IMG/VR virus record: IMGVR_UViG_3300033148_001204
Coordinates: 1 to 45,548 of that record
Origin: a virus
DNA: 45,548 nucleotides
Reading direction: 5' to 3' (one strand)
Below, piece after piece: positions 3,595-17,735 of this stretch. Position 1 is the stretch's first letter. Every line of letters begins with the position of its first letter. A program made the translations under genes and the position numbers. The notes under the pieces are model-generated. The model was not told the DNA's origin and made no database searches. It saw only the letters and a program-made list of their open reading frames with translations.

Positions 3595-3915
3595 ATGAAA
3601 AAGATTATTGTTAATGGTGAAGAAGAGATAATGATAGAGCCTAATGAACCTTGCTATTTATGTGGTGGAGAAGTATACGGTCCATGGGCAATGTTTCATG
3701 GTGCTATAGAGTCGCAATGCTGTGGTATACAGTATCAGGTTAAAGATTATAGTGTTGAGAACGTATCGGAGCACAAAGAAGAGTTTGATTTGTACACTAA
3801 GGGTTTTAAACAACTAGGTATCAACTCAAAGTTCTTAGATAGAGTAAAAGAATTGTTTGATACTAATCAGATAACACATACAAATCAAATAACTGATGAA
3901 ATGTTGGAGGCTTAA
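3595..3915 (+). CDS. Small zinc-ribbon-like protein
   Basis: 106 residues. CYLC (C20, C23) and CC (C42, C43) form a plausible zinc knuckle. The rest is acidic and helical. Start chosen at 3595 because AAGGAG lies 6 bases upstream; a longer frame would begin within the previous gene. Zinc ribbons of this size in phage early regions bind nucleic acid or host proteins, but no specific role is shown. Confidence 0.65.
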   Translation: MKKIIVNGEEEIMIEPNEPCYLCGGEVYGPWAMFHGAIESQCCGIQYQVKDYSVENVSEHKEEFDLYTKGFKQLGINSKFLDRVKELFDTNQITHTNQITDEMLEA

Positions 3916-3916
3916 A

Positions 3917-4222
3917 ATGTTAACATGGAAAGAACTACACGCTATAAGCGAGTTAGAGGGCTTAGAAAATGAAATGCCTAAAGAGTTTGTGCCAGCTATA
4001 AATTTAGCAGGTTTATTAGGAACTAATCCTGTTATGTCTTTATCTTTTATATTAGGTTTAAACATTGGAGATGTTGAAGAAACAATGAAACTTTTAATTG
4101 GCTCAAACAGTATTACTGAGATGGGTGAATATCTATATAATAATATGGAAACTGAAAAGATTGTTAGTTCTTGCAGCATACTTATGACCGCAATAGATAA
4201 GCCATTTCCTTTAAAGGCTTAA
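3917..4222 (+). CDS. Hypothetical protein
   Basis: 101 residues with a hydrophobic stretch near residues 32-48 (LAGLLG..PVMSLSFILGL) that is amphipathic rather than clearly transmembrane. GGAGG lies about 7 bases before the ATG at 3917. No family recognised. It sits in the run of early genes with gaps of 1-3 bases. Confidence 0.6.
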   Translation: MLTWKELHAISELEGLENEMPKEFVPAINLAGLLGTNPVMSLSFILGLNIGDVEETMKLLIGSNSITEMGEYLYNNMETEKIVSSCSILMTAIDKPFPLKA

Positions 4223-4224
4223 TC

Positions 4225-4905
4225 ATGTATTTAGATGATGCAACACCTGGTACATTTCTAAAGCGATGCTATAAAGGTGAAAATATAGTTACTGATTATA
4301 TTATTAGTATATCTTTAAATAGAAAATTAAGATATTATAATCGTGTTAATAGTAATAGATACGAGGCAAGTAGTCCCGTTAGAGCTAACTCTGGCACACT
4401 GGACCACAATGATTTTGAATATTGTGACCAAAATGGAGAATTAATCAAGGAGATTAAAATGGTAAACAAAGAAAATGATGTAAATTACATCGGTGGAGAT
4501 TATCAAATAGTTGAGGTATCTTATACCACTAATACTGGGGAGTTTCCTACAATACATTCATATTACTTTAAATGTGATATTGATATAGAAGTAACAGAGG
4601 GAGATTTAATGGTAGTAGAGTCTAAGAGAGGTTTAGGTATTGTTGGAGTTATTAAATGTTTTACAAACTGTTTAGAGAATGCAGAGATTGTTAAGAAAGC
4701 TACTGCATGGATTGTATGTAAGATTGATTACTCAAGACAGAAAGCTCGTAAAGAAGCTACTGAACGTAGAGTATATGTGATACAACAACTCGAAGAGAAA
4801 AAGCAACAAATGGATGCAATTAATATGTATGCACTACTTGCAGAGACAGATAAAGATGCTGCTAAGCTTCTTGAAGAACTTAAAACTTTAGGTGGGACAA
4901 AATAA
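4225..4905 (+). CDS. Hypothetical protein with a probable internal translation start
   Basis: 226 residues. Residues 1-78 form one unit (Met at 4225). Residue 79 is a Met at 4459 preceded by AAGGAGATTAAA, the same ribosome-site string that precedes the gene at 3595. The downstream part has a strand-rich segment (GDYQIVEVSY..HSYYFKC..GDLMVVE) and a C-terminal coiled-coil-like helix rich in Lys, Glu and Gln. The gene may produce a full-length and a short protein, or may be an in-frame fusion of two genes. Confidence 0.6.
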   Translation: MYLDDATPGTFLKRCYKGENIVTDYIISISLNRKLRYYNRVNSNRYEASSPVRANSGTLDHNDFEYCDQNGELIKEIKMVNKENDVNYIGGDYQIVEVSYTTNTGEFPTIHSYYFKCDIDIEVTEGDLMVVESKRGLGIVGVIKCFTNCLENAEIVKKATAWIVCKIDYSRQKARKEATERRVYVIQQLEEKKQQMDAINMYALLAETDKDAAKLLEELKTLGGTK

Positions 4906-5522: not shown

Positions 5523-5963
5523 ATGAAACTAGATATATTTTGGGCTCACAAAGAAGGTATCTCTCAAGCTATGAGAAGTGCCTTAATAATGAGTAAAGCA
5601 TTAGGCAGACCAATGCATGATTATTGTGAGTATACTGATAATGTAACTATTCAATTAAATAAAGGATTGGTAGAAGATACTGATGAAGTTATGGAAAAGT
5701 TACAAAGTGTACAAGCTTATATAGATAATGGGTATACTCTTAAAATAGATGGTGATACTAGAGCTGATGGAAGATATGATTATTTTCATTGTGCTTATTT
5801 TAAACTAAGTAAAAAATTGCTTAGAAATAAAATAGAAGATACACAAATAGAAGATGCTATGAGAACATTGCTCAGAAAAGAAATGGGTTTACGTCCTTAT
5901 AGAGAAATTGAGTGTAAAGTACAGCTTTATTTAAGCAAGGTAAGATTGATTGGGATGCTGTAG
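5523..5963 (+). CDS. Hypothetical protein
   Basis: 146 residues. The ATG at 5523 lies 4 bases after the previous stop, with AAAGG upstream. The upstream in-frame extension overlaps the previous gene and has no ribosome site. The middle contains an acidic helix and a Tyr/His-rich stretch (GRYDYFHCAYFKL). No domain recognised. Confidence 0.6.
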   Translation: MKLDIFWAHKEGISQAMRSALIMSKALGRPMHDYCEYTDNVTIQLNKGLVEDTDEVMEKLQSVQAYIDNGYTLKIDGDTRADGRYDYFHCAYFKLSKKLLRNKIEDTQIEDAMRTLLRKEMGLRPYREIECKVQLYLSKVRLIGML

Positions 5964-6005
5964 TAGAAGCCCATACAACTGACTGTAAGATGTAAAGGAA
6001 ATATA

Positions 6006-6314
6006 ATGTATACTACAAGCGAAACATTACCTATACAGAGAGGTGAGCCTCAATTAGGTACTATAACTGATATAACAATACATGAGGCTTATTTTGGTGA
6101 GATTAGAAATTCATTCTATAAAGCTATGACAGAGGCTCAGTATATTACCAAAGAAATAAATATGATAGATACAGCCACTGATGAAGAGTTAATGATAGAG
6201 ATTGAGAATCATTTTTCTGAGTCTGAGATGTCCATGCTAGAGGTTCTGTTTGATAATAGTGATGAAGATAGGGAGCTATCATATACAGAGATTAAGGAGA
6301 TTATAGAGCTATGA
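6006..6314 (+). CDS. Hypothetical acidic protein
   Basis: 102 residues, very acidic C-terminal half (many Glu), predicted helical. AAAGGAAATATA precedes the ATG. Strongly acidic early phage proteins are often inhibitors that mimic nucleic acid, but that is only a possibility here. Confidence 0.6.
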   Translation: MYTTSETLPIQRGEPQLGTITDITIHEAYFGEIRNSFYKAMTEAQYITKEINMIDTATDEELMIEIENHFSESEMSMLEVLFDNSDEDRELSYTEIKEIIEL

Positions 6315-6553
6315 TAGTAGATATAATATTAATTTCGATAGCACAGTTAACGTTCATGGCTTATGCTAGGTCTAAGAATTGGAGAATAGCAGACCCTGAT
6401 GGAGATGTTGGTATTTTTATGTATATACCTATACTTGGTCCTATATCAATTATTATGGCTTTTGGCTTAATAGCAGTATTTGTAGCCCCTTTCTTAATAC
6501 CATCAGGTATTTCTTGGTGTGTAGATAAAATAGTAAGGAAACGAGATGATTAA
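6311..6553 (+). CDS. Two-helix membrane protein
   Basis: 80 residues with hydrophobic segments near residues 2-18 and 37-68, the second containing Pro and Gly and long enough for one kinked or two helices. The C-terminus is basic (KIVRKRDD), which favours it staying in the cytoplasm. ATGA overlap with the previous gene. Likely inner-membrane; role unknown. Confidence 0.6.
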   Translation: MIVDIILISIAQLTFMAYARSKNWRIADPDGDVGIFMYIPILGPISIIMAFGLIAVFVAPFLIPSGISWCVDKIVRKRDD

Positions 6554-7819: not shown

Positions 7820-7949
7820 TTTAAAATATAAGCTTAGAATGTTTAAAATAAAACATGATAAGTTAGTAATATTAATAGAATTAATGGTAACAATAGCTAT
7901 ATCATTAAGCTTAGCTTATTTATTCTTTTTAGCTACTATAGGAGTATAG
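7812..7949 (+). CDS. Single-pass membrane peptide (45 residues)
   Basis: A basic N-terminus (residues 1-18, several Lys and Arg) precedes a hydrophobic helix from about residue 19 to 45 (LVILIELMVTIAISLSLAYL). Overlaps the previous gene by 8 bases; the next gene starts two bases after its stop. The basic N-terminus predicts an N-in orientation. Function unknown. Confidence 0.5.
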   Translation: MHDLKYKLRMFKIKHDKLVILIELMVTIAISLSLAYLFFLATIGV

Positions 7950-7950
7950 T

Positions 7951-8148
7951 ATGAGTTATATGATAGGTTTAATAGTATATAAAGACTCGCTGAATAATTG
8001 GAATGAGGCTACAAATATAGCTTTTATAAATAAAGATGCTAATAAGATAAAAGTAATTTCAGCTAATCATGAGCAATACGCTAGGAAGCATTTAATAAAC
8101 AACAATGATTGGTTTGAACACTATAATCATTTAAGGAGTAAAGGATAA
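7951..8148 (+). CDS. Hypothetical protein
   Basis: 65 residues with no recognised domain. The following gene starts in its stop (TAATG). The ribosome site is GGAG about 6 bases before the ATG. Confidence 0.55.
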   Translation: MSYMIGLIVYKDSLNNWNEATNIAFINKDANKIKVISANHEQYARKHLINNNDWFEHYNHLRSKG

Positions 8149-8669
8149 TGACTAAATTTCAAAAGATACTAGAAGAGCTTAACTCTGGTGCATATGATAA
8201 ATCTACCATCTTTTCAGAAGTGGTGGACGAGTTAATGAGAGATTTTAAACTATCACATTCTGCAACTAGATATGCTGTTGTGGCTTGGGAATATTATAGA
8301 GGCAAAGAATTAATAAGAGGTAATCCTGGTCCTACCAAAAGCCACTATGTTAGAGTATGTCCTAAGTGTGGAGACGAGAAGGAAACTAATTACCCACCAA
8401 AGGAAGGGCAAGTATGTATGGATTGTCACTTTGATAGGTTTGTTCCTCTTAATAATAACTGCCCTGAAGACCATAGATGTACCGCTTGTGGAGAAGGGCC
8501 AAAGAAGGTAAACTTCACAATAAGTACTCAAACAGGTAGGCATAAAAAGAAATGTAATAGGTGTACTAATAACAAAGTAAAGGTTAAGCTACCTCTAACA
8601 GCTGATAGAGTAAACGAAATATCTGATAAGTTTAAAGATTATTTTAAGGAGAATTATAATGTTAAGTAA
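8148..8669 (+). CDS. Double zinc-ribbon protein
   Basis: 173 residues. Residues 1-55 are helical and HTH-like. Two zinc ribbons follow: C71/C74 with C90/C93, and C111/C114 with C136/C139. The C-terminus is basic. The arrangement suggests nucleic-acid binding, possibly transcription control, but no close family is recognised. Coupled to the gene before it by TAATG. Confidence 0.65.
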   Translation: MTKFQKILEELNSGAYDKSTIFSEVVDELMRDFKLSHSATRYAVVAWEYYRGKELIRGNPGPTKSHYVRVCPKCGDEKETNYPPKEGQVCMDCHFDRFVPLNNNCPEDHRCTACGEGPKKVNFTISTQTGRHKKKCNRCTNNKVKVKLPLTADRVNEISDKFKDYFKENYNVK

Positions 8670-9320: not shown

Positions 9321-10636
9321 TGTCTGAAATGTTAGAACAAGTAAGTAACTATGACCAAGAGATTGAGTTTGTTATAGGTTTTGCTGGTTCAGGTAAATCT
9401 ACTGAGCTTAGTGAAAGAGCAGATACTAAAACATTGGTATTAACTCCAACACATAAGGCTGCAGCAGTACTAATAAGAAAGGGAGTTGAGAATGTTTATA
9501 CTATACATTCAACTCTTAAACTTGTACCTACTCTAAATCAGAATTATGTTCCAGGTAAGCATAGAATGCAAAAGCTTAAACAGATAGGGTCTACTGATTT
9601 ATCTAAAATTAAAAATGTATTTATTGACGAGTTTAGTATGATTAACCAAGAGATACTAGATTTACTATTAGAGGTATTACCAGCTGAATGTAAGGTTACA
9701 ATATTTGGTGACCCTTATCAATTACCACCTGTTACAGGATTAGTTATTGACCCTATAGTATATACAGAAAATATAACTGAATTAACTACTCAACATAGAG
9801 CAGAGGCACCAGAAGTAGTTGAGACATTTATGAGGTTTATGAATTATATAAAAAATGGTAAAGAGATGGACTTAAAGTTACATTCTGATATTAAGAAAGG
9901 AAGTATTAAAACTTTTAACCCTGAAACTGATAGAGTACTGGCTTATACTAATGCTAAGGTTTTAGAACTTAATACACAGATAGCAAAACATTTAGGATTA
10001 CCTGAGGAGTTCAGCGTCAATGAAAATTTAATGGTTAATGGTATTGATTGTACCTTTAATGGTATTGATTGGTCTAAGACTATATTAGCACAGCAATTGT
10101 TTCCTAATTGTATTAGTAAAGGTAAACTAATGGGAGAGCAAGAGTTACAAACTCAGGCTGCTAAAACTATGGCTGACATTAGTAAGTGGGGTACAGATAA
10201 AATCATTAGACAATATAAGCAAACCATTGTTACAATAGATGATACACCTTATGTGATTAATTATGACCCTAATCATTATGCTACTCAACAAAGATTAAAA
10301 GCTGATGTAGATAAATGGCAAACTCATGTATATGAAAAGAATGATATACCTGCAGATACTAAATTAGCTTATTGGTGTGGTCAAAATAAGAATGCTCCTG
10401 GGGTTAAAGAAAGAGGTAGAGCATGGTCAGAATATATAGCACATAGTAATCTAGTATTTAATTTACAACGACCATTTGCTACTACTGTTCACAAGAGTCA
10501 AGGTTCTGAGTTTAGTACTATATACATAGCACAAGAAGATATAAAGAGGGCTATATATAAAGGGTACTATAAAACATATGCAATACTAATGTATGTATCA
10601 TTAAGTAGAGCAATTAATAAGGTGGTAATAATCTAG
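9320..10636 (+). CDS. SF1 DNA helicase, Dda/RecD-like
   Basis: 438 residues, an ATP-driven 5'-3' DNA translocase by family. Walker A GFAGSGKS at residues 20-27, motif Ia TPTHKAA near 42-48, Walker B FIDEFSM with D103/E104, motif III GDPYQLPP at 130-137, a late VHKSQGSEF motif and YVSLSRA motif VI near the C-terminus. All SF1B motifs are in order and the length equals phage T4 Dda. Expected to assist fork progress or remove bound proteins. Last gene of the early operon, coupled to its upstream neighbour. Confidence 0.92.
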   Translation: MSEMLEQVSNYDQEIEFVIGFAGSGKSTELSERADTKTLVLTPTHKAAAVLIRKGVENVYTIHSTLKLVPTLNQNYVPGKHRMQKLKQIGSTDLSKIKNVFIDEFSMINQEILDLLLEVLPAECKVTIFGDPYQLPPVTGLVIDPIVYTENITELTTQHRAEAPEVVETFMRFMNYIKNGKEMDLKLHSDIKKGSIKTFNPETDRVLAYTNAKVLELNTQIAKHLGLPEEFSVNENLMVNGIDCTFNGIDWSKTILAQQLFPNCISKGKLMGEQELQTQAAKTMADISKWGTDKIIRQYKQTIVTIDDTPYVINYDPNHYATQQRLKADVDKWQTHVYEKNDIPADTKLAYWCGQNKNAPGVKERGRAWSEYIAHSNLVFNLQRPFATTVHKSQGSEFSTIYIAQEDIKRAIYKGYYKTYAILMYVSLSRAINKVVII

Positions 10637-10661
10637 CTAGGAATAAAATAAAATTTAATTA

Positions 10662-10693
10662 TTAAGATTAGATTAAGAATATTTAGATATAAT
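10662..10693 (+). promoter_or_regulatory. Promoter for the SSB/polymerase operon
   Basis: TATAAT at 10688-10693; TTAAGA at 10673-10678 and 10662-10667, exactly 15 and 26 bases upstream. This is the best match to the shared plan. Expected start near 10700, leaving a leader of about 128 nt. Confidence 0.8.
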
Positions 10694-10699
10694 TATATC

Positions 10700-10827
10700 A
10701 TATCTTTATTCATTTAAAGAGATAGGTTTTTCAGGACTTCCCTATCGAGCTACTCAATTGATAGCTTAACAATAAGTTACTTATGGTTTTATCTTGCTTT
10801 ACCTATAAAGCAGACAAGGAGTCTATT
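10700..10827 (+). promoter_or_regulatory. Structured 5' leader with competing hairpins
   Basis: GATAGG at 10721-10726 pairs with CCTATC at 10741-10746. The same CTATC (10742-10746) can pair instead with GATAG at 10760-10764. AGCTA/TAGCT at 10748-10752/10762-10766 is a further hairpin, and TGCTTT/AAAGCA at 10795-10800/10807-10812 sits just before the ribosome site. Mutually exclusive helices in a long leader suggest attenuation or mRNA stabilisation; no known riboswitch class is recognised. Confidence 0.45.
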
Positions 10828-12537: not shown

Positions 12538-14322
12538 ATGAATTACAAAATTATAAATTCAGTATTGGATTTACCTACATTCGATAAAGACAAGCCAGTT
12601 TTCTGTGATATAGAAACGGATGATTTATACGGACCACTTAGAATGATACAGATGTATCAACCCTCAACAGACCCTTTAATATATATCTTGGATATAGCTC
12701 CTATAGGCTATGATAAAGATACTTATAACCATGAACTACTAAATATCAAAGAAGGCCTTATGCGTCTTCATACAGTATGGTATAATAGTTCTTATGATTT
12801 AGGTACTTTAAATATTAGTCCTAGTATGGGTGCAAAGACTCCTGCAGATATTACTTCTGATAGTGTATATAGTCATAGAGTAGATGATTTATTCTATGCT
12901 ACTAAATCTGCATATCCTGAGTTTCAAGAGTTTGGATTAAAGAAGGTAGTTCTTAAATTGAAATATACAAAAGATTTGTATATTGATATTAAGACAAAAG
13001 AAGCTGCTAAGGGATTTGTTAGAGGTGCTTATATATCTCAACAAGCTATAAGATATGCTGCTTTAGATGTATATGCGTTATCTTTAATGTGGGAAGATAA
13101 GAAAATTCAGTTAGTTATATCTGATAACTTATCTTATGAAGTAGATATGATGTCCCAATCATATGCTCTTATCTATCAGCAAAATGGTTTAAAATTAGAT
13201 AGAGAAATGTGGATAGAAAAGCTTGAATTCGCCAGAGAACAAGTAATTAAATTTACTGATTTGTTGCCGGCTGGATTTAATCCTAATTCATATGTACAGG
13301 TAAGGAAATTACTTGATACTGAGAAGAGTGATAATGATGCATTGGTTACATATGCTGCAAGTAGTAAGCCATTGGCTAAAACAGCATGGTATATTATCAA
13401 TGCTAAGAAGTATAAAAAACAAGTAAGCTACTTGACAAGTATTAATTTCAATAGAATGTTTACTAAGTTCAATGTAGCAGGTGCTATTACAGGTAGATTT
13501 ACTTCTGCTGGTGGGTCATTAGAAGATGGCTTTAATAGTCAACAAATACCTAGAGATTTCCAAAAACTATTTACTCAAGATATTGGTAACACTACAGTTA
13601 TTGATTTGGATTATAGTACTCTAGAGTTAAGACTTGCTTGTGCATTATTCGGTAGTGAATATATGTATCAACAGTTAAAAGATGATAGAGATTTACATAT
13701 TGATATGGCTCTTATAGCTTCACAGAAAGCTATTGCACCTGATGGCTTCCCTGAGATTAATGAGCGTAATATGTTACCTTGGGGTCAGAAGCATGATGAA
13801 TATTTAAATGAGCAAGAACGTAATGATGCAAAAGCAATTAACTTTGGTTATGTGTTTGGTATGAGTGCTGCTTCTTATATTCCTTATGCTTTTGTACAGT
13901 ATGGAATTATAGTTACTATGGAAGAGTCTGTAGCATTAAGAAAACATTACTTTAAAATGTACCCTGAGTTTTCAGTTCATCATAAGTATGTTTGGAATAA
14001 CTATAAGAAACCTAGCTTTATAGTAGAGACAGCTTTAGGTCGTAAAATAAAACCTAAACTTGGTACAGATGGTATTAATGGTGGAGTACAAGGTACAGGT
14101 GCAGAGACTACTAAACTTGGTGTTCACTATATGGTTAAAGAAAATCCGTTAGTATTAAAGTATATCTTTAATGTTGTTCATGATGCTGTATATGCAAGAG
14201 TAGATAAACTTGATGAACATTACTGGCGACCATTAATTAAGACTAACATGTTAAAAGGTTGGACAGAGATTAGTAAATGCCCAATCTTTAAGTTTAAAGA
14301 TATCCCAATGAAGGTGGAATAA
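12538..14322 (+). CDS. Family A DNA polymerase with 3'-5' exonuclease
   Basis: 594 residues, the replicative polymerase. Exonuclease: D24/E26 (CDIETDD), D87 (WYNSSYDLG), Y173 and D177 (YAALD). Polymerase: motif A DYSTLELR with D358, motif B R428..K432..F436 G in RNDAKAINFGYVFG, motif C VHDA with D549. Shorter than T7 gp5 (704) and resembling compact marine podovirus enzymes. The thioredoxin-binding insert of T7 is not apparent. AAGGAAA lies before the ATG. If the phage makes modified dCTP (see 17079), this enzyme would have to accept it. Confidence 0.96.
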   Translation: MNYKIINSVLDLPTFDKDKPVFCDIETDDLYGPLRMIQMYQPSTDPLIYILDIAPIGYDKDTYNHELLNIKEGLMRLHTVWYNSSYDLGTLNISPSMGAKTPADITSDSVYSHRVDDLFYATKSAYPEFQEFGLKKVVLKLKYTKDLYIDIKTKEAAKGFVRGAYISQQAIRYAALDVYALSLMWEDKKIQLVISDNLSYEVDMMSQSYALIYQQNGLKLDREMWIEKLEFAREQVIKFTDLLPAGFNPNSYVQVRKLLDTEKSDNDALVTYAASSKPLAKTAWYIINAKKYKKQVSYLTSINFNRMFTKFNVAGAITGRFTSAGGSLEDGFNSQQIPRDFQKLFTQDIGNTTVIDLDYSTLELRLACALFGSEYMYQQLKDDRDLHIDMALIASQKAIAPDGFPEINERNMLPWGQKHDEYLNEQERNDAKAINFGYVFGMSAASYIPYAFVQYGIIVTMEESVALRKHYFKMYPEFSVHHKYVWNNYKKPSFIVETALGRKIKPKLGTDGINGGVQGTGAETTKLGVHYMVKENPLVLKYIFNVVHDAVYARVDKLDEHYWRPLIKTNMLKGWTEISKCPIFKFKDIPMKVE

Positions 14323-15033
14323 ATGTTAACACGTAAAGAAACAATAGCTAAGGGTAAACTATTAGTAGAGATTGATATTAATACAGTATGTAACCTTAGT
14401 TGTAATAACTGTAATAGGTTTTCACAGTTTAAATCTACATATAAGGTTATGAATCTTGAGCTTATCAAAGAATTTGTTAAAGATAATAAACATTACGGTA
14501 AAGATATGACAGTAGCAATATTAGGAGGTGAGCCTACACTACACCCTGATATAGAGTTAATTATTATAGCTCTAGCTAAGTATTTTAATGTTATACTAAC
14601 TACTAATGGCTTGACTGAGTATAAGCCTCTTATACCAGGTATAGTAATTGAAAACTCAGCTAAAGAGGTTAATGAAGAGCCTGAGTTTGCTTTAACTATG
14701 AATGCTCCAATAGATGATAATAGTTATATAGGTGTAGACTATTCTATGGGTTGTAGACAATCAGGTATTTGTGGTAATGGCTTTAATGAGAATGGCTATT
14801 ATCCTTGTTCAGTAGCTATGAATATAGATAGAATGATGATGACTCAAGGTATGTTAGGCAATGGATGTGTATCTTTATCTATGAGTAATAGGCATAGAAG
14901 TGCTACATTAGATAATCTATGTAGATATTGTGGTACTTTTCAGAACAGACATTATGGTGTATTAAAAGCAACTAATATAGGAACAGAACAGGTTTATTCT
15001 AAATCTTGGAAATTTATGGCGATGGTAAAATGA
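14323..15033 (+). CDS. Radical SAM enzyme with SPASM-like C-terminal cysteines
   Basis: 236 residues. CNLSCNNC gives the canonical CX3CX2C (C23, C27, C30) that binds the SAM-cleaving 4Fe-4S cluster; GGEP at 68-71 binds the SAM amino group. C144, C150, C162, C182, C200 and C203 suggest one auxiliary iron-sulfur cluster, as in SPASM/Twitch proteins. It begins directly after the polymerase stop and ends in ATGA with the exonuclease, so it belongs to the replication operon. Substrate unknown. No precursor-peptide gene is obvious next to it, which favours a nucleotide or DNA-linked substrate over a peptide (inference). Confidence 0.88.
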   Translation: MLTRKETIAKGKLLVEIDINTVCNLSCNNCNRFSQFKSTYKVMNLELIKEFVKDNKHYGKDMTVAILGGEPTLHPDIELIIIALAKYFNVILTTNGLTEYKPLIPGIVIENSAKEVNEEPEFALTMNAPIDDNSYIGVDYSMGCRQSGICGNGFNENGYYPCSVAMNIDRMMMTQGMLGNGCVSLSMSNRHRSATLDNLCRYCGTFQNRHYGVLKATNIGTEQVYSKSWKFMAMVK

Positions 15034-15965
15034 GTGAAGAAATGAAAGATATAAATTTAAGTGCTAGAGGTGAGGTTATGCCTCCAAAGATTGATTTAAT
15101 TGCATTAGTAGATGCAGACACAGTAGTATTTGCTGCAGCAGTATCTTGCGAGTATAGAGAAGAGTTACTACATATTGATATGTATACAGATGAAGAGCTA
15201 TTAGTTATTAGAGCTGACCCTGGTTTTGATGAAGCAGAGTGGTGTGTCTATGGTATTAACATGGAAGAGGCAATGGCTCATGCAGAAGATAAGTTAACAA
15301 CTATACTACATCTATCAGGTGCTAGAGTATTTGAATTACATTTTACTGCTGGTAGAGAGTCGTTTAGATATACTGATGTAGATAAAGATTATAAAGCTAA
15401 TAGATTAGCTGATAGTCAAGGGCAAAAGACTAGAGCTCCATTCGGGCTATACAATTTAAAACAAGCATTAGTTAAGAAATATGACACAAGTGTTATGTGG
15501 TTAAGATGTGAAGCTGATGATGCAGTTTGGTGGTTAGGTAATCAATACCCTGATAAGTATTTAGTTTGTGCTGTGGATAAAGATGTATTAGGTGCAACTA
15601 GAGTTCAAGCATTTAATTACTTTGCAAGAGCTGCATATATACATCCTAAATCTAATAATCAAATTGCTGAGATTAAAATGAAGTTTGTTCAAGCTAAAGA
15701 CCCTGATTTATTTTGGTACTACCAATGTTTAACTGGGGATAAGGGTGATGGTATTATAGGTATTCATGGTATGGGACCAAAGAAAGCACAGAAGGCTCTC
15801 AAAGGTTGTGAGACTAATGCTGAGAGATGGTCTGCAATTGTTAGAGAGTATGAGAAGTCTGGTGGTTCAGAGATAGATGCATTGTTAAATATGCGAATGG
15901 TCAGGTTAGACCAGTATAATCCCGAGACGCAAGAATTAAATTTATTTACTCCGAGGGATTTATAA
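15030..15965 (+). CDS. 5'-3' exonuclease (T7 gp6 / FEN-like)
   Basis: 311 residues. Acidic metal ligands occur in the family order: LVDADT near the N-terminus, YTDVDKDYKANR, CEADDAVWWLG, CAVDKDVLG and LTGDKGDGIIG, with the helix-hairpin-helix GIHGMGPKKAQKAL after it. Removes RNA primers or degrades host DNA, as gp6 does in T7. Start at 15030 uses the ATGA overlap; an 8-codon longer frame lies within the radical SAM gene and has no ribosome site of its own. Confidence 0.88.
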   Translation: MSEEMKDINLSARGEVMPPKIDLIALVDADTVVFAAAVSCEYREELLHIDMYTDEELLVIRADPGFDEAEWCVYGINMEEAMAHAEDKLTTILHLSGARVFELHFTAGRESFRYTDVDKDYKANRLADSQGQKTRAPFGLYNLKQALVKKYDTSVMWLRCEADDAVWWLGNQYPDKYLVCAVDKDVLGATRVQAFNYFARAAYIHPKSNNQIAEIKMKFVQAKDPDLFWYYQCLTGDKGDGIIGIHGMGPKKAQKALKGCETNAERWSAIVREYEKSGGSEIDALLNMRMVRLDQYNPETQELNLFTPRDL

Positions 15966-17095
15966 TGATAGTAACTTCGATAAGTTTAACAGACCACAGA
16001 ATTGATGTGAAGTTTTCAGATTATATATCTAAGGCATTAAATTGCACTAGGTATTTATCTGCTAACACTACTCATTTAATAGTTACTAATGGTATGATTG
16101 ATTCAGCAAATCCTAAAGTATTAAAGGCAATGAAAGAGTTACCTAGTATCTATTTGATTGACGACCATACTTGTTGGATACCTGATTTAATAGAATATCC
16201 TTTATGTACTATATACAGTCAATTCACAGAGCATCCAACAGATAAGCATACTCCTATGAAATATTTTCAAGTGAGTAAGTTAGCTTTGTTTGATGAATTA
16301 TTCTCTGTTCTAGAGCCTAGAGCAGAGAAACAATATGACTATGTTTATTGGGGTAAGTATAAAAAAGAACGACATGAGCAATACTTTAAGTATTTAAGAT
16401 TTGGTACTTATGTTATAGGTAAGAACTATCCTAAAGAGCTTGGGGACCGAATGGTTATAGGTAAATTTACCAAAGACTTAGATGTTTTAAATAAAGAGAT
16501 TAGTAAGGGTGCAAAGACTAAAATATTCGGTGATGAATTTCATGATGGTGTAAACTTGCCTTATCGTATCTATGAAGCTCTTATGAACTGTGTACAACCT
16601 GAAATAGCTAGAGAGTTATTAGGTACTCAAGAGATACCGCCTATTGGCTATATAATGGAGTATATAGAAGGTACAATTAGTTCTTTTGTATACAAGAAGC
16701 AGTTAGATAGAGATAGACAAGCTATCGTAGACGAATTAGATACTATGTTAAATGATTTACACTACGGTACTAATATGGTGGAAGCTAATGAATGTTTAAC
16801 TAATGATGTAAATAGCGTAACAGATATATTAAAAGAGAGAGGTAAGATATATGGTTCTTATGTTCATGGCGTACATTGTAGAGCTACTATTATGGAAGCT
16901 TTAAATGAACTACATATTGATTGTAATGGTAAATCTTTAGAGCCTAATGTTCAAGTAGTATTTAGTGATTTAGTTTTAAAACTTATGAGAGCAGCTTCTA
17001 GCCCTTCTCATTCAGATAGCTGGTTAGACCTTGCTGGATATGCTAAATTGATTAACGATATGGTAGAGGAGCAACCTGATGAATTTCACAGTTAA
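15965..17095 (+). CDS. Putative GT-B glycosyltransferase fused to DUF6378
   Basis: 376 residues in two parts. Residues 1-235 resemble a GT-B glycosyltransferase: a first alpha/beta half, then YDYVYWGKYKKERHEQYFKYL (residues about 124-144), FGTYVIGKN and LPYRIYEALMNC at 198-209, matching the sugar-nucleotide half of such enzymes. Residues about 280-366 match DUF6378: DILKERGKIYG, then DLVLKLMRA and DSWLDLAGYAKLI. DUF6378 is common in phages and looks like an all-helical nucleotide-related domain; its activity is not established. The stop codon overlaps the next gene by 17 bases. The fusion next to a dCMP-hydroxymethylase-like gene suggests a role in modifying hydroxymethylcytosine. Glycosyltransferase call moderate; DUF6378 call fairly firm. 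Confidence 0.6.
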   Translation: MIVTSISLTDHRIDVKFSDYISKALNCTRYLSANTTHLIVTNGMIDSANPKVLKAMKELPSIYLIDDHTCWIPDLIEYPLCTIYSQFTEHPTDKHTPMKYFQVSKLALFDELFSVLEPRAEKQYDYVYWGKYKKERHEQYFKYLRFGTYVIGKNYPKELGDRMVIGKFTKDLDVLNKEISKGAKTKIFGDEFHDGVNLPYRIYEALMNCVQPEIARELLGTQEIPPIGYIMEYIEGTISSFVYKKQLDRDRQAIVDELDTMLNDLHYGTNMVEANECLTNDVNSVTDILKERGKIYGSYVHGVHCRATIMEALNELHIDCNGKSLEPNVQVVFSDLVLKLMRAASSPSHSDSWLDLAGYAKLINDMVEEQPDEFHS

Positions 17096-17735
17096 TGATA
17101 TTAGACAAGAGTTTAAAAGGTTACACTCTGCTGGTAAGGTTAACAAGAGAGGCATGCTTGAGATTCAAGGTGCTTCTTTTATTGCTGATGAAGAAACTAT
17201 TGTTGGTACTCGTAATGAAGAGTATATAGCTATTGAAATGGATTGGTATCTTAGTCAAAGTAGAAATGTTTATGACATGACTAAGACTCCTAAAATTTGG
17301 AGAGATATAGCTACTCCTGATGGGTATATAAATAGTAACTATGGTTATCTAGTTTATGGTGATGATAATAACAATCAGTTCCAAAAAGTTATTAGAACTT
17401 TAAGACGACGACCAGATTCTAAACAGGCTACTATGATTTATACTAGACCTGAAATACATCAGCAAGCATTCGATGGAGGTAGACGAGATTTTATTTGTAC
17501 AAACACAGTTAACTATAACCAAGACTTGTATGACGAAAATAAGATTAATGCTATTGTTCAGATGCGTAGTAATGATGCAGTGTTTGGGTATAAGAATGAC
17601 TTCCATTGGCAACGGTATGTACTCAATGAGGTATGTAAAGCAGTAGGTAAGCAGCCTGGTAAGATACTTTGGCAGTGTGCTTCTTTACACATTTACCCTC
17701 GTCATTTTGATTTGATATCTTCATTATTTGATTAA
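17079..17735 (+). CDS. Thymidylate-synthase-fold enzyme, probable dCMP hydroxymethylase
   Basis: 218 residues. Thymidylate synthase signatures are all in order: E53 in EMDWYL, W74 in WRDI, YGY, R111-S114 in RPDSK, nucleophile C140, RSND with R163/S164/D166, and HIY with H204 and Y206. The base-recognising Asn of thymidylate synthase (E. coli N177) aligns with D174 in GYKNDF. Asp at this position is the hallmark of cytosine-specific hydroxymethylases such as T4 gp42. It therefore likely makes 5-hydroxymethyl-dCMP from dCMP with methylene-tetrahydrofolate. It is shorter than T4 gp42. Last gene before a strong terminator. Confidence 0.8.
   Translation: MNFTVNDIRQEFKRLHSAGKVNKRGMLEIQGASFIADEETIVGTRNEEYIAIEMDWYLSQSRNVYDMTKTPKIWRDIATPDGYINSNYGYLVYGDDNNNQFQKVIRTLRRRPDSKQATMIYTRPEIHQQAFDGGRRDFICTNTVNYNQDLYDENKINAIVQMRSNDAVFGYKNDFHWQRYVLNEVCKAVGKQPGKILWQCASLHIYPRHFDLISSLFD

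Follow-up and report, generated by a model that had tools for sequence, protein, structure and literature searches.

The operon around the family A DNA polymerase gene of a small uncultured podovirus-like phage probably encodes a T4-like cytosine-replacement system of the glycosyl-5-hydroxymethylcytosine (5hmC) type. The window, i.e., the whole stretch of DNA that was analyzed, comes from IMG/VR as a virus record 45,548 bases long; it carries podovirus-type genes for a portal, an internal virion protein and a terminase. The T4 cytosine disguise would extend to a clade whose members are small and have podovirus-type genes, by way of a very distant branch of the T4 DNA beta-glucosyltransferase (BGT) family.

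The operon runs in the order single-stranded DNA-binding protein, family A polymerase, radical SAM enzyme, exonuclease, glycosyltransferase–DUF6378 protein, hydroxymethylase, HTH-like ORF, helicase and ligase. The polymerase gene, the operon head (12538–14322, plus strand, like the cassette genes that follow; PF00476, 4.4e-23), is followed by the genes for a 236-residue radical SAM enzyme (14323–15033; PF04055, 2e-10) and a 5'–3' exonuclease (15030–15965; phrog_107, 4.3e-42). The exonuclease ORF opens at a TTG at 15006, but the ATG at 15030 is the more likely start. A 376-residue ORF (15965–17095) then encodes a BGT-related GT-B domain (approximately residues 1–281; 15965–16807) and a C-terminal DUF6378 domain (16814–17095; PF19905), and the cassette ends with a predicted dCMP 5-hydroxymethylase (17079–17735). 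The junctions from polymerase to hydroxymethylase leave no gaps: the radical SAM gene abuts the polymerase gene (0 bases) and overlaps the exonuclease gene by an ATGA (−4, given the 15030 start), and the exonuclease–glycosyltransferase and glycosyltransferase–hydroxymethylase overlaps are 1 and 17 bases (−1, −17). All the overlapping or abutting genes that the preliminary description had listed downstream of the polymerase are therefore present, as judged by Pfam, PHROGs and these junctions. Elsewhere in the window, an 816-residue ORF (539–2989) with no PHROG match and a weak DUF5906 match is possibly a primase/helicase.

The 218-residue product of 17079–17735 is identified by homology as a dCMP hydroxymethylase of the T4 gp42 type. 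It carries the thymidylate-synthase fold (1.9e-16), and its best match in a phmmer search of the PDB is T4 dCMP hydroxymethylase (1b49; E=1.6e-52), which leads the best thymidylate synthase (E=2.7e-5) by 47 orders of magnitude. It is 44–45% identical to T4 gp42, and its identity to the counterpart in Micrococcus phage Kurnik is about 50%. Cys140, Thr141 and Asp174 match T4, and His204 is a further residue of note; Cys140 and Asp174 stand at the positions of the T4 catalytic Cys148 and the dCMP-selecting Asp179, and Asp174 aligns also with Asn177 of E. coli thymidylate synthase. The enzyme had been described beforehand as one of thymidylate-synthase fold bearing the Asp of dCMP hydroxymethylases, and both the residue and the sequence match bear this out. 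In the MetaGPA study, thymidylate synthase positions 177 and 147 best separate cytosine-modified from unmodified contigs, and position 177 is mostly Asp on the cytosine-modified ones (PMC8670742).

Automatic annotation names such proteins thymidylate synthase, which would fit an operon of ordinary nucleotide metabolism where this enzyme stands beside an unrelated glycosyltransferase. The dCMP-selecting Asp, the Thr after the catalytic Cys and the lead of the T4 hydroxymethylase all argue against that reading, which is the least likely of those considered. The homologue of the RB69 genus, described as a 5-hydroxy-dCMP synthase (PMC13390438), is likewise an enzyme of thymidylate-synthase fold with Asp, and with such an enzyme the sugar would be attached directly to the C5-OH (5-ara-dC type). 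This is very unlikely for the window, given that the protein is only 20% identical to the RB69 enzyme as against the value for T4 gp42, that the T4 motifs are kept, and that no sugar-making genes were recognized in the window by Pfam, PHROGs or a Walker-A scan.

A T4-like system also calls for a glycosyltransferase, and the N-terminal 281 residues of the 15965–17095 product are the candidate. This region is recognized by none of Pfam, NCBIfam and BLAST; a contig search with it gave no match, nor did it find a BLAST-level match among annotated phages. Structure and profile comparisons point to a remote homologue of T4 BGT with a GT-B fold. An AF2 model from an alignment of five sequences (pLDDT 78) shows two alpha/beta domains, and its top match in a Foldseek search of the PDB is T4 BGT (1qkj; E=2.3e-6, probability 1.00, TM 0.41–0.44), the sole match below E=0.001. 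The remaining top matches are mainly GT-B enzymes; the GT113 enzyme 9htx is among the matches, as is T4 alpha-glucosyltransferase. Glycosyltransferases account for many of the best matches in a viral structure library. PMC13216743 names GT113 as the cellular family closest to the T4 glucosyltransferases and describes the BGT family itself as phage-only.

Profile comparison by hhalign of the five glycosyltransferases with six BGTs gave a score of 46.3 (E=9.9e-6, prob 82), about twice that of the best of 100 column shuffles (23.8); the reversed profile scored 16.3, and no unrelated alignment exceeded 18. The kinship is significant with family alignments on both sides, but not against T4 BGT alone (E=0.15), and it should be read with the 14% identity, the TM of about 0.4 and the model from five sequences in mind. 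In the alignment, BGT Asp100, Arg191, Arg269 and Glu272 correspond to Asp67, Lys133, Arg201 and Glu204 of the phage domain, of which Arg201 and Glu204 are invariant in the five phages. Asp100, Arg269 and Glu272 are active-site residues of BGT. When the glycosyltransferase of L032, one of the relatives, was compared by tblastn with all annotated phages, the sole match was the BGT of Enterococcus phage vipetofem (E=0.01). The preliminary description had called the 15965 product a putative glycosyltransferase, to be abandoned if models lacked such a fold; the GT-B-like model with T4 BGT first, together with the profile match, sustains that proposal for the N-terminal part.

The DUF6378 domain of the window matches PF19905 at 5.5e-6, just under the gathering score, and its homologue in the relative L012 passes. 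As the glycosyltransferase (9716–10498) and a 94-residue DUF6378 protein (10477–10761) are encoded by two separate, overlapping genes in L012, the 376-residue ORF is a fusion of the two, common to the window, L001, L004 and L032. DUF6378 is found in many unrelated phages as a separate gene near replication and nucleotide genes. It is also present in the relatives L039, L034 and L035, all of which are without hydroxymethylase and glycosyltransferase, and L039 keeps the exonuclease as well. Because both persist in such relatives, DUF6378 and the exonuclease belong to the core replication operon and are not modification-specific; their earlier inclusion in the modification cassette is accordingly withdrawn. 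A role of DUF6378 as a MazG/gp56-like dCTPase was considered and rejected: the ExxE...ExxD motif is absent, hhalign against T4 gp56 gave prob 3, Foldseek gave no match with a poor model, and the domain occurs in operons without hydroxymethylase. PHROG families 474 and 1167 and some phage records label DUF6378 proteins phosphofructokinase, a name that was set aside here as it is without Pfam support.

The proposed pathway can be outlined as follows. The hydroxymethylase would convert dCMP to 5-hydroxymethyl-dCMP. A kinase, for which no gene was recognized in the window, would phosphorylate this product, and the family A polymerase would then incorporate it into phage DNA. With a nucleotide sugar as donor, the BGT-like domain would glycosylate the hydroxymethyl group in the DNA, and the attached sugar would protect the phage DNA from host nucleases. 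Homology supports the predicted identities of the enzymes, closely for the hydroxymethylase and remotely for the glycosyltransferase; the substrates, DNA as acceptor, the sugar and the protection are what we infer. T4 requires both a dCTPase and a dNMP kinase step. Counterparts of the T4 enzymes for these steps (gp56 and gp1) were not found in the window by the same Pfam, PHROG and Walker-A searches, where some proteins are of unrecognized family; either the host or genes that escaped recognition may provide the two steps.

The same gene order was found in three other uncultured phages with polymerases 62–70% identical to that of the window, and a fourth has it except for the radical SAM gene. 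A search for the gene order in related phages had been proposed in the preliminary description; this recurrence argues that the cassette is not a chance arrangement. The cassette genes are translationally coupled in the relatives too, and hydroxymethylase and glycosyltransferase are conserved together in five diverged phages. In the polymerase tree, the four radical SAM carriers form one clade (100/99) inside the five-phage clade with hydroxymethylase and glycosyltransferase (86/96). A single acquisition may thus account for each gene set, so that the pairing of hydroxymethylase and glycosyltransferase may represent one event rather than five. Because the tree shows a single gain, co-occurrence counts prove nothing, and the association of the radical SAM gene with hydroxymethylase and glycosyltransferase (Fisher p=0.007) was discarded. 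The cassette may have grown from an exonuclease–DUF6378 core by addition of hydroxymethylase and glycosyltransferase and then of the radical SAM gene; the glycosyltransferase gene would have landed beside the DUF6378 gene, and in most relatives the two are fused.

The radical SAM enzyme has a CxxxCxxC motif (Cys23/27/30) and five further cysteines (C144, C150, C162, C200 and C203), all invariant in the four phages; the latter likely bind an auxiliary Fe-S cluster. The copy of L004 is 75 residues longer at its N-terminus, and weak matches occur among Campylobacter and Synechococcus phage proteins. The 42.7-kb record of L032 encodes hydroxymethylase and glycosyltransferase with no radical SAM gene anywhere. 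The gene is therefore a later, separable acquisition not required for the core pathway: it had been proposed as a cassette member, which holds for its place in the operon here and in three other phages but not for L032.

What this enzyme does bears on the final base. Some pathways of thymidine hypermodification use radical SAM enzymes, and a full hypermodification, with the enzyme acting on 5hmC, the attached sugar or its donor to yield a new cytosine derivative, is a tentative possibility. It accords with the presence of a translationally coupled gene in the operon of all four phages of one clade, with every Fe-S cysteine kept at 44–72% identity, and with the lack of the gene in all eight relatives without T4-type hydroxymethylase and glycosyltransferase. 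The single gain deprives this co-occurrence of statistical weight, however, L032 has the pair alone, and a family profile search placed the enzyme in no named family above cut-off beyond the superfamily. Somewhat better odds, though still short of even, may be given to a base that is hmC or glycosyl-hmC, with the radical SAM enzyme serving something else such as nucleotide supply or host takeover. L032, where a 91-residue ORF takes the same slot, would fit this, as would the diversity of the nearest named families (MoaA-like, SPASM maturases; all far below cut-off); against it, the gene occurs among the relatives examined only in phages with hydroxymethylase and glycosyltransferase, and amid those very genes. 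As a guess, the enzyme might further alter hydroxymethylcytosine, the sugar or the sugar donor within the T4-like pathway, but it is unlikely that such tailoring yields an undescribed base and so makes radical SAM chemistry part of cytosine hypermodification. The 91-residue ORF of L032 (9739–10014) is MazG-like (Pfam E=0.04, below cut-off) and is a candidate dCTPase on this similarity.

In more distant relatives other genes stand after the polymerase, and the region resembles a landing place for genes of nucleotide modification. An Asp-type enzyme of thymidylate-synthase fold directly follows the polymerase in L038 and in phages PH1, IW-1 and ctXG1253, the last of which also has an NTP-PPase there. 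The corresponding genes of L040 (PH1; 9655–10473), L042 (IW-1; 7851–8648) and L041 (9703–10518) are annotated as thymidylate synthase or pyrimidine hydroxymethylase. As the cultured relatives Pseudoalteromonas phage PH1 and Edwardsiella phage IW-1/KF-1 have the Asp-type enzyme in this place, cytosine modification can be tested at the bench. In L037 (5569–7292), the Asp-type enzyme adjoins a C5-cytosine DNA methylase (PF00145, 1.7e-22), after exonuclease and DUF6378. In L039 (10950–12727), L034 (5515–7850) and L035 (4926–7156), DUF6378 is followed by a ThyX-like protein, a nucleoside 2-deoxyribosyltransferase and a YfbR-like HD nucleotidase, possibly a different base-modification cassette in the same place; a PRA-PH/MazG-like protein is also encoded in the L034 cassette and, by eye, in that of L035. 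L039 has a second thyX at 3670–4347 with an in-frame TGA, and upstream of its operon L001 carries thyX (5837–6466), the gene for a FAD-dependent thymidylate synthase, which was not found in the window.

The combination had been regarded as a new arrangement for a small podovirus. A hydroxymethylase with a glycosyltransferase is already known, and GenBank has small phages in which an Asp-type enzyme is paired with a glycosyltransferase (Alakazam, 41 kb); what is new is the very remote BGT branch in a podovirus-like clade, the DUF6378 fusion and the neighboring radical SAM gene. Among 50,697 annotated phages, no full-length match was found to the glycosyltransferase, the fusion or the adjoining radical SAM enzyme of the window.

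The operon can be compared with several known systems. T4 gene 42 and b-gt share with it the hydroxymethylase type and catalytic residues, BGT as the nearest fold with aligned active-site residues, and a location of both enzymes in the replication region, b-gt adjoining gene 42; in contrast to T4, the window belongs to a 45-kb phage with a family A polymerase, its glycosyltransferase is about 280 residues long and DUF6378-fused, a radical SAM gene is added, and gp56 and gp1 are missing from the genes recognized. Microbacterium phage Alakazam and its relatives also have a glycosyltransferase alongside an Asp-type enzyme in the family A polymerase region, but the hydroxymethylase-like enzyme is 33% identical to that of the window, the glycosyltransferase is by eye of another fold type (GT-A), and a thymidylate kinase and MazG are present with no radical SAM gene annotated. 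In the larger Lactobacillus phage ATCCB (80 kb), an Asp-type enzyme directly adjoins a BGT homologue, which unlike that of the window is 31% identical to T4 BGT and lies beside a UDP-galactopyranose mutase gene. The 5-arabinosyl-dC pathway of Mosigvirus RB69 likewise joins an Asp-bearing thymidylate-synthase fold to glycosylated cytosine, but its enzyme makes 5-hydroxy-dCMP (PMC13390438) and sugar genes are present. The 5-carbamoyloxymethyl-dC phages found by MetaGPA resemble the window in pairing an Asp-177 type enzyme with a tailoring enzyme acting on hmC, which in their case is a carbamoyltransferase (PMC8670742).
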